From a virus: a stretch of DNA of 20,036 nucleotides. The notes beneath the pieces are model-generated. The model had not been told where the DNA came from and made no database searches. It saw only the letters and a list, made by a program, of their open reading frames with translations. Within the stretch, counting starts at the first letter, position 1; the number at the start of each line of letters is the position of its first letter. This document shows positions 14,907-19,317 of the stretch, piece after piece. A program made the position numbers and the translations under genes. The DNA is taken from IMG/VR virus record IMGVR_UViG_3300043469_000079, positions 1 to 20,036 of that record; one strand, given 5' to 3'.

Positions 14907-14934
14907 CCCCAGTCCTAAAAAGCTGGGGTTTTTT
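14907..14934 (+). terminator. Intrinsic terminator of the late block
   Basis: CCCCAG (14907-14912) pairs with CTGGGG (14923-14928) across a 10-nt A-rich loop and is followed by six T. It lies just after the mini-zincin gene and should end transcription of the lysis/phosphoesterase block. Confidence 0.85.
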
Positions 14935-14937
14935 ATA

Positions 14938-14945
14938 TATCTTTG
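14938..14945 (+). promoter_or_regulatory. TAnnTTTG promoter element between two terminators
   Basis: TATCTTTG matches the -7 consensus, 4 bp after the first terminator. The next transcript end is the second terminator at 15007, so use of this element would give an RNA of about 55-60 nt. No TTG is visible at -33. Confidence 0.35.
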
Positions 14946-14973
14946 GCTTTCATATTGGAGAACTTAGGTTTAA

Positions 14974-15007
14974 CCCCCTTGTCAATTTCTATTGATGGGG
15001 GTTTTTT
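14974..15007 (+). terminator. Second intrinsic terminator
   Basis: CCCCC (14974-14978) pairs with GGGGG (14997-15001). Inside, TCAAT (14982-14986) pairs with ATTGA (14991-14995) across a TTCT loop, and six T follow. It is a strong stem for an AT-rich genome and lies immediately before the promoter-like element of the HNH gene. Confidence 0.85.
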
Positions 15008-15009
15008 AG

Positions 15010-15017
15010 TATATTTG
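15010..15017 (+). promoter_or_regulatory. TAnnTTTG promoter element of the HNH gene
   Basis: TATATTTG is followed by four bases and then ATG 15022, the same spacing as at 6418-6430, so the predicted transcript is leaderless or nearly so. It lies 2 bp after the T run of the second terminator, which insulates the gene from upstream transcription. Confidence 0.45.
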
Positions 15018-15021
15018 CAAT

Positions 15022-15459
15022 ATGAAAAATACAACTTGGAAAACAATTAATGGCTTTACAGTTTATAAAATAAGTAACAATGGTATTGTTATGAATGTAA
15101 AAACAAATAGAATATTAAAAACTAATATAGACCCATATGGTTATGTAAGAATAGATTTACAACAAAAAATTGATGGAATAATAAAATATAGAAAAACATC
15201 AATACATAGGTTATTAGCAGAAAATTTTATTGATAATCCTAATAACTATAAATGTGTTAATCATATTGATGCAAATAGAATTAATAATAATTTGAATAAT
15301 TTAGAATGGTGTACTGCAAAACAAAATATGCATCACGCAAGATATGTAACAAAAAATGGAACAGTCATATCTAAACAAAAAATTATTAAATTAGTGGCTG
15401 AAAATCCTACTTTAAACAAAAATGATATAATAGATATGCTCATATCTAATTGCAGATAG
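15022..15459 (+). CDS. NUMOD4-HNH homing endonuclease
   Basis: This 145-residue protein has an N-terminal NUMOD4-like domain (W6-K-T-I-N-G-F-x-V-Y-K-I-S-N-N-G) and a central HNH_3 nuclease domain. The latter shows I-H-R-L-L-A-E-N-F-I (61-70), V-N-H81-I-D-A-N, then N-L-E-W-C-T and Q-N-M-H-H-A-R. Family members are free-standing homing nucleases that nick target DNA and spread by repair. The C-terminal 35 residues (I-I-K-L-V-A-E-N-P-T-L-N-K-N-D-I-I) look like a short helical DNA-binding tail. It sits alone between terminators and a control region with its own promoter-like box, as expected for an inserted selfish gene. Confidence 0.85.
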   Translation: MKNTTWKTINGFTVYKISNNGIVMNVKTNRILKTNIDPYGYVRIDLQQKIDGIIKYRKTSIHRLLAENFIDNPNNYKCVNHIDANRINNNLNNLEWCTAKQNMHHARYVTKNGTVISKQKIIKLVAENPTLNKNDIIDMLISNCR

Positions 15460-16345: not shown

Positions 16346-16538
16346 GGCTGACCTTGCAGAATGGAGGCGAGGACTTGATGACACAAGGACAATGATTAGC
16401 GAGGAGGACTTGTTAATCAAGATTGCAAGGATGAATGACATCCAGCGCAGAATCCTTAAAAGCTACCATTACTTGATTCTGGACCTTTACACCTTAACGG
16501 AGGACTTTATGCTCCCAATAAACCTTTTACATTTCTAA
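16242..16538 (+). CDS. Helical protein of unknown function
   Basis: This 98-residue charged helical protein (Q-L-K-L-H-K-R-A-T-M-L-L-E-L-L-K-Q-A, L-A-E-W-R-R-G-L-D-D-T-R-T-M, D-I-Q-R-R-I-L-K-S-Y-H-Y-L-I-L) overlaps the ribbon-helix-helix gene by 104 bp if ATG 16242 is used. An in-frame ATG at 16296 would reduce this to 50 bp and keep most of the helix. The stop shares one base with the DnaA-domain gene. No motif is recognised. Confidence 0.55.
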   Translation: MSKLIYQEKQLKLHKRATMLLELLKQAQGRQNLFEADLAEWRRGLDDTRTMISEEDLLIKIARMNDIQRRILKSYHYLILDLYTLTEDFMLPINLLHF

Positions 16539-16975
16539 TGAAAGAAGTACATAAAACATATATGGCAGAACTTGAAATTGAAGTTTTGCGAGATAAGAAC
16601 AAAGAACTAAAGAGAGAGATAAACCGATTAAAGGATTTATTAGATCATCATTTAAACATAAAAACAACACGAATGGACAAGGAACAACAAAAAGAGTATG
16701 CAGTTCAAATGGCTGAAAAGATATGCAATTACTATCAAATTAAGTATGGACAAATGATGTCTAAATACAGAGGCGAGGAAGTTACTTTGGCAAGGCAAAT
16801 GACTATGTATTTCACTAAGCAAAAAACCGAGTTAAATGGCGAGGAAATTGCACAATTATTCAAAAGGGATAGAACTACTGTTTTACATTCAATATCCAAG
16901 ATTAAGGGTCAATTATCAAATAAGTTTGATGATACCATAAAAAATGACATTTTCAACTTAAATGTGCTACTTTAA
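16538..16975 (+). CDS. DnaA domain IV-like DNA-binding protein
   Basis: This 145-residue protein has two parts. Residues 8-38 are a charged coiled coil (E-L-E-I-E-V-L-R-D-K-N-K-E-L-K-R-E-I-N-R). Residues 55-125 match the C-terminal DNA-binding domain of DnaA: K-Y-R-G-E-E-V-T-L-A-R-Q-M-T-M-Y-F-T-K, then L-N-G-E-E-I-A-Q-L-F-K, then R110-D-R-T-T-V-L-H-S-I. The last corresponds to the R-D-H-T-T-V-L-H signature that reads the DnaA box. There is no AAA+ ATPase domain. It is encoded before bet, so it may mark the phage origin, block host DnaA, or regulate transcription. The coiled coil could dimerise it. Confidence 0.78.
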   Translation: MKEVHKTYMAELEIEVLRDKNKELKREINRLKDLLDHHLNIKTTRMDKEQQKEYAVQMAEKICNYYQIKYGQMMSKYRGEEVTLARQMTMYFTKQKTELNGEEIAQLFKRDRTTVLHSISKIKGQLSNKFDDTIKNDIFNLNVLL

Positions 16976-18505: not shown

Positions 18506-19009
18506 ATGAGCCAAACAACACAAATCGCAAACTACCTAAATTATAGCATAAGTAAAGATGGTAATGTTATAAATAACAAATTTAAACGAAAATTAAAACC
18601 ATTTTTAGATGCTTATGGATATTACCAAGTTTGTTTATGTAATAAAGGTCAAATTAAAAAGTTTCGTGTAAATAGGTTAGTAGCTGAAGCATTTATACCA
18701 AATACAAATAATTATAAACAAGTAAATCATATAAACGGAATTAAAACAGATAATAGGATAGAAAATCTTGAATGGGTAACTCCAAGTCAAAATATGTTAC
18801 ACGCTTATAAAATTGGCTTGAAAAAAGTTACTAATAAAAATATCAAAGCATCAAGATTAGCTAATTCAAAAGTTGTTTTAGATACTAAAACAGGTATATT
18901 TTATGATAGTGCTAAAGAAGCAGCAACTTTACTTGGATTAAATAAACAAACACTTTATTGTTATTTGTTAGGATATAATACTAATAAAACATCTTTAATT
19001 TACGCATAA
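18506..19009 (+). CDS. NUMOD4-HNH-NUMOD1 homing endonuclease
   Basis: This 167-residue protein has a NUMOD4-like start (Y-L-N-Y-S-I-S-K-D-G-N-V, about 10-21) and an HNH_3 nuclease domain. The latter shows V-N-R-L-V-A-E-A-F-I-P, V-N-H75-I-N-G, I-E-N-L-E-W-V-T and Q-N-M-L-H-A. A NUMOD1 DNA-binding helix lies at the C terminus (F-Y-D-S-A-K-E-A-A-T-L-L-G-L, 132-145). It lies between the SSB-like and HTH genes. Its first 12 residues match the start of the next gene at 7 positions (M-S-Q-x-x-Q-I-x-x-Y-L-N). The first 11 codons use more C than the rest of the gene, hinting that the 5' end was taken from another gene. Confidence 0.85.
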   Translation: MSQTTQIANYLNYSISKDGNVINNKFKRKLKPFLDAYGYYQVCLCNKGQIKKFRVNRLVAEAFIPNTNNYKQVNHINGIKTDNRIENLEWVTPSQNMLHAYKIGLKKVTNKNIKASRLANSKVVLDTKTGIFYDSAKEAATLLGLNKQTLYCYLLGYNTNKTSLIYA

Positions 19010-19217: not shown

Positions 19218-19225
19218 TATTTTTG
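19218..19225 (+). promoter_or_regulatory. TAnnTTTG promoter element before replication gene
   Basis: TATTTTTG matches the -7 consensus and begins 2 bp after the HTH stop. No TTG is at -33. A start near 19229 would give a leader of about 90 nt, much the longest in the window, beginning within the first hairpin of the structured leader. Confidence 0.45.
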
Positions 19226-19317
19226 TATTAGGTGTTGCAGACCTATTAAGAACTTATTGCCCTTGAGATGAACTCCTATCTGCAACATAGGAGGGATTTG
19301 ATAGGGCTATTTTATTT
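19226..19317 (+). ncRNA. Structured leader with two kissing hairpins
   Basis: Hairpin 1 spans 19226-19248: TTAGG-T pairs with A-CCTA-type arms (five or six pairs plus an outer TA/TA), loop GTTGCAG at 19234-19240. Hairpin 2 spans 19273-19293: CTCCTAT pairs with ATAGGAG (seven pairs), loop CTGCAAC at 19280-19286. The two 7-nt loops are perfect reverse complements, so they can form a kissing complex. GCCCT (19259-19263) can also pair with AGGGC (19303-19307) around hairpin 2. AGGAGG (19289-19294) lies in the 3' arm of hairpin 2 but is 23 nt from ATG 19318. I recognise no known RNA family. It may instead act as DNA, as an origin with hairpins. Confidence 0.55.

Follow-up and report, generated by a model that had tools for sequence, protein, structure and literature searches.

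The window (the whole stretch of viral DNA that was analyzed; 20,036 nucleotides) carries, near its end, a replication-initiator-type gene preceded by a promoter-like box and a structured leader. The features of this locus are as follows.

19218 to 19225, + strand: TATTTTTG, a match to the TAnnTTTG motif of the Bacteroidetes sigma-A -7 box
19230 to 19244, + strand: hairpin 1 (HP1), AGGT-GTTGCAG-ACCT, whose pairs covary
19234 to 19240, + strand: loop 1, GUUGCAG, the 5' side of the kissing helix
19245 to 19258, + strand: single-stranded linker with a conserved ACUUAUU (conserved alignment columns 28 to 35)
19259 to 19269, + strand: 5' strand of P2 (P2a, GCCCU; P2b, AGAU), from P2a/P2b covariation and the MFE fold
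19273 to 19293, + strand: hairpin 2 (HP2, or P3), CUCCUAU-CUGCAAC-AUAGGAG, with covariation at 6/6 counted P3 pairs
19280 to 19286, + strand: loop 2, CUGCAAC, the 3' side of the kissing helix
19296 to 19307, + strand: 3' strand of P2 (AUUU..AGGGC), from covariation and the MFE fold
19308 to 19317, + strand: T-tract TATTTTATTT (consensus T6-A-T2-5), terminator-like and fixed to P2
19318 to 20034, + strand: replication-initiator-type gene, Lin1244_N/DUF4373 (PF14297; E = 8.8e-9), which runs off the window

P2 pairs GCCCT (19259 to 19263) with AGGGC (19303 to 19307) and encloses HP2, and the AGGT/ACCT stem of HP1 gains an extra pair (T19229-A19245). The first-pass annotation, which had given the extent of the element as positions 19226 to 19293, placed both hairpins correctly and omitted the enclosing P2 and the T-tract, which reaches position 19317. 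Its description of the loops as fully complementary over seven positions is exact in letters and coordinates: GTTGCAG (19234 to 19240) and CTGCAAC (19280 to 19286) are exact reverse complements (7/7). It had also called such a match improbable by chance, and dinucleotide-preserving shuffles agree, with an expectation of 0.083 loop-matched pairs per window for stems of at least 4 bp and 0.003 when both stems have at least 5 bp. The + strand of the window contains no second loop-matched hairpin pair besides HP1/HP2. Elsewhere in the window, two homing-endonuclease-like genes interrupt the phage early region, one matching NUMOD4/HNH_3 (18506 to 19009) and the other judged by eye (15022 to 15459), and a short protein consisting only of the DnaA C-terminal DNA-binding domain is encoded near the replication genes (16538 to 16975).

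Of 80 fetched loci encoding the downstream protein, 77 had upstream DNA (L036, L047, and L049 were truncated), and the element was found in 77/77 of these relatives; in L050 and L074, an inserted gene separates it from the replication gene. Eighty loci of a second replication-gene family were scanned by script and then by eye, and the element was detected in 60 by script and 6 by eye, the other loci comprising 7 with a second architecture (see below), 1 with a diverged leader (L440), 2 that were truncated, and 4 without the element. The diverged leader, upstream of position 1501 in L440, has the loops CTAGGGA and TCCCTAG, and its tail, ahead of the ATG, reads GAGCCTTTTTTATT. Pattern scans that did not require the second loop recovered at least 103 unique leaders with at least 12 loop pairs, and, among the matches listed, the loops were complementary at 7/7 positions in 103/103 unique leaders, although 6/7 was allowed; because the scans used exact patterns and cover only the matches listed, leaders with other HP1 letters are undersampled. 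A covariance model search located the element in 27/27 phage records, with one copy in 25 and two copies in 2, so that one copy per genome is usual. One match (L078, 2471 to 2550; covariance-model score, 25 bits) was discarded as false after inspection.

The leader was matched to no family in Rfam 15, as the first-pass annotation had anticipated in recognizing no known RNA class. At the gathering threshold, a cmscan-type check of the window and 20 related loci gave 0 matches (riboswitches and Flavo-1 included), and relaxing the threshold to E values of up to 10 gave weak, unrelated matches only, far below the cutoffs, in a database that may lack some candidate RNAs of published screens. No homologue of the leader was found in cultured phages, where a whole-region search matched mostly the HNH gene. 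Bacterial genomes gave four pattern matches, none with the second hairpin, and the covariance model was silent in three of those genomes; a combined-pattern search of 395 Bacteroidota genomes yielded no match. All of the leader sequences compared are metagenomic. On the sequence evidence, the leader is a previously uncatalogued structured RNA of a Bacteroidetes-type phage family, located ahead of a replication gene.

To describe the fold, 98 distinct leaders were aligned over the pairs of HP1, the kissing helix, P2a, P2b, and P3. Standard pairs occupy 97.9% of the pair cells, and the covariation score is 0.677 for the true fold versus ≤0.147 for slid versions. The kissing helix is 100% Watson-Crick (686/686 cells), with double-sided changes at 5/7 pairs and invariant U7-A63 and A11-U59 pairs; pair 8-62 occurs as all four pair types and has the highest mutual information in the whole alignment. 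Compensatory changes of this kind, found in both the stems and the loop-loop helix, bear out the earlier suggestion of an RNA kissing complex, and comparison of the leaders establishes the fold and the kissing helix to near certainty. The counted stem pairs include 75 G-U and 0 A-C cells (67 and 0, respectively, in P3 alone), which favors an RNA of the + strand. The internal loop between P2 and P3 is symmetrical and purine rich, with a near-invariant G.A in 94/98 leaders; a kink-turn at P2/P3 was ruled out, since this loop is symmetrical and without a 3-nt bulge. The linker is mostly 14 to 16 nt long, measured from the 4-bp HP1 stem.

The element had been described as lying between a promoter-like box and a DUF4373 replication gene, and both neighbors were confirmed, the gene by its PF14297 match and the box by its recurrence: a TAnnTT[TC]G box lies upstream of the element in 187/187 unique contexts, and its distance from HP1 (4-bp stem) is 3 to 6 nt in 176/187, a coupling that the compared contexts establish. 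In Flavobacterium psychrophilum, a TAnnTTTG-type box spans -12 to -5 relative to the start site (PMC9723704); the +1 position should therefore fall at HP1 or within 2 bases of it in most leaders, and the transcript of the window is predicted to start at A19230, the first base of HP1. In a scan for this promoter type only, antisense -7 motifs were found in 25/190 leaders versus a background of 22%; they are thus rarer than background, and the proposal of control by an antisense RNA is not supported.

At the 3' end, the T6-A-T tail begins at the end of P2, and the ATG follows 9 to 12 nt later in 113 leaders, whatever the downstream gene, which establishes the position of the element before the AUG across the leaders compared. 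The position of the tail is constant relative to P2 and variable relative to the ATG. At sites with a strong hairpin and a T-run in seven related genomes, most hairpins end in GGGG-TTTTTTAT or similar (TTTTTTA), and the window itself has two strong terminator-like hairpins with the same type of ending. Both of these intrinsic-terminator-like hairpins (14907 to 15022) end in TTTTTTA and have a TAnnTTTG box downstream; only a few bases separate the second box from the ATG of an HNH gene, so that the transcript of this gene may be nearly leaderless. The start regions of ordinary genes of related phages are A rich, with A commonest at -11/-12, and initiation in Flavobacterium johnsoniae is favored by A residues at -3, -6, -12, and -13 (PMC6847099). 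The leaders mostly carry U or paired G/C at those positions, so that the tail looks built for termination rather than for ribosome binding.

The genes served by the leader are diverse. They include genes of the replication-initiator type with interchangeable N-terminal parts (Lin1244_N/DUF4373, DUF1376, weakly DnaD-like, and others unnamed by Pfam) as well as genes for endonucleases of the HNH and GIY-YIG types, for a putative methyltransferase, and for an ATPase/GNAT-like protein. In L165, L183, L206, L235, L270, and others, the replication proteins resemble one another in their C-terminal but not in their N-terminal parts, as if the DNA-binding part had been exchanged behind a constant leader. 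In L289, a leader copy (1966 to 2049) precedes a gene for what looks like an ATPase fused to a GNAT-like part; the copy that serves the replication gene follows 1.25 kb downstream. A shared metabolic theme among the downstream genes was tested for and not found. Since the same leader precedes unrelated genes, gene-specific sensing by a riboswitch is unlikely, and the suggestion of ligand sensing tied to the gene is not supported.

The leaders also vary as units. Among 353 leader pairs in which both flanks are near-identical (about 92 to 95% identity), 59 of them different-loop pairs, leader identity was 98.7% for the same loop and 65% for different loops, a pattern which shows that leaders are exchanged modularly as discrete alleles, a point absent from the first-pass annotation. 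The two copies on two-copy contigs always have different loops, and the loop GTGAGAT was found only before HNH-type genes among the matches listed. No protein tracking the loop allele was seen in seven genomes. The allele pattern may reflect selection for specificity or may have been produced by recombination alone.

A second, unrelated-looking leader precedes similar replication genes in L450, L451, L454, L455, L457, L458, L459, and L460 to L534. In these DUF1376-type relatives, TAnnTTTG is followed by a large-loop hairpin, a plain terminator hairpin with a 9-bp stem, TTTATTTTTTTT, and the ATG. Over 8 nt, the loop of the terminator complements that of the upstream hairpin, with three matched loop pairs and a single mismatch in 1/20 sequences. 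This architecture appears to repeat the same loop-clamped terminator logic in related phages.

We consider the best reading of the leader, with somewhat better than even confidence, to be a cis-acting attenuator of ~88 nt whose terminator loop is clamped by the upstream hairpin. Transcription would begin at the first base of HP1, which would fold first, and the loop of the emerging HP2 would pair with the HP1 loop over 7 bp. Closure of P2 would then put the GC-rich base of the hairpin against the U6-A-U tract to give an intrinsic terminator; some of the transcription would therefore stop just before the start codon, leaving a short, end-protected RNA, and read-through alone would yield the replication initiator. 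The kissing helix would clamp the terminator hairpin and set the stopping frequency. In the read-through mRNA, the fold would lie ~10 nt upstream of the AUG and should hinder ribosomes too. Termination itself, the direction in which it acts, how it is regulated, and any influence on translation are inferred here from sequence features, and the leader probably limits the amount of replication protein made. Against an attenuator, P2a has 4 to 5 bp and is split from P3 by internal loops and so may terminate weakly. As for a mutually exclusive antiterminator helix, no competing helix covaries among the 98 leaders.

Control may instead act on translation, with the kissing pseudoknot serving as a roadblock or entrapment beside the start codon and the U-tract as no more than an open landing site for ribosomes. 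The strict spacing of 9 to 12 nt between P2 and the ATG, kept in 113/113 leaders before any gene, could equally have a translational role, and ribosomes of Bacteroidetes are sensitive to structured start regions (PMC6847099). We nevertheless regard this account as rather unlikely, since T6-A-T is fixed to P2 and not to the ATG and is terminator-like, unlike the A-rich start regions. It is improbable that the compact leader RNA is itself the product, as a stable small RNA, or that its structure shields the mRNA at its 5' end: HP1 at the predicted +1, a terminator hairpin as the 3' end, and ends locked by 7 bp would suit such roles, but every copy lies 9 to 12 nt before an open reading frame, which a free-standing small RNA would not need.

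Still more doubtful is a trans-acting specificity (incompatibility or superinfection exclusion), by which leaders of the same allele would pair in trans and block expression of the replication genes of related phages. The discrete alleles, the differing loops of two-copy contigs, and the lack of an allele-tracking phage protein among the seven genomes speak for it; however, each loop already has its partner in cis, and recombination alone can produce the allele pattern. Lysogenic immunity is unlikely because no integrase or HTH_3 repressor was found in 13 records of 29 to 34 kb. A leader RNA-based specificity system of virulent phages, which would silence the replication genes of phages with the same allele and of no others, its loops diversifying and changing hands in the manner of incompatibility types, is a speculative idea to which we give little credence. 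Least probable of all is a DNA-level element, such as the replication origin suggested initially, or a ligand-sensing riboswitch. The element adjoins a replication gene, and its internal loop is rich in purines and has a G.A pair that hardly varies, but the G-U wobbles without A-C cells favor a + strand RNA over a DNA-level origin, a promoter is always present at near-fixed spacing, second copies precede endonuclease genes, the downstream genes are unrelated, and the internal loops are variable.

Among known systems, the attenuator proposed here appears most like pT181-type attenuators in its working. In pT181 repC attenuation, the kissing partner comes from an antisense RNA, the terminator is in competition with an antiterminator helix, and a translational block has also been reported (PMC5435934). 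Both systems have a replication-initiator leader, a terminator (terminator-like here) close to the start codon, and kissing hairpins in the decision, and in both, control of transcription and of translation is possible; attenuation may possibly be combined with a translational block here as well. Unlike in pT181, both kissing partners lie in one leader. The leader was not classified as pT181 type because an antisense promoter and RNA and a competing antiterminator helix were looked for and not found.

The kissing loops of ColE1 are 7 nt long and fully complementary, as are the two hairpin loops in 103/103 unique leaders among the matches listed. In ColE1 RNAI/RNAII and the I-complex RNAI/SLI (PMC10724649), loop-loop pairing is likewise tied to replication control and loop letters decide specificity, but those pairs are sense-antisense RNAs, whereas here both loops belong to one strand with one promoter. 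The HK022 putRNA, with putL just downstream of PL, is also a phage cis-acting RNA with two stem-loops near a promoter, and it renders polymerase resistant to terminators far downstream (PMC9378689). The put stem-loops are not described as kissing, however, and here the second hairpin is terminator-like and lies beside one gene. Purine, lysine, and guanidine-II riboswitches share with the leader a 5' position and adjacent hairpins joined by loop-loop contacts; unlike these RNAs, with their gene-linked ligands and conserved pockets, the leader has no Rfam match and precedes unrelated genes.

A new RNA family, present in a large group of uncultured phages and built around an intramolecular kissing helix of 7 bp, is supported by the covariation; this helix is as long as those of the classical kissing complexes between plasmid RNAs and their antisense RNAs. 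With alleles that are discrete and swapped, loop specificity can be put to the test, and designed RNA switches could use the naturally matched loop pairs as parts. Should the attenuator reading hold, these phages would have a compact control logic that dispenses with the antiterminator helix competing in known attenuators, and the same logic would occur in two unlike architectures of related phages.
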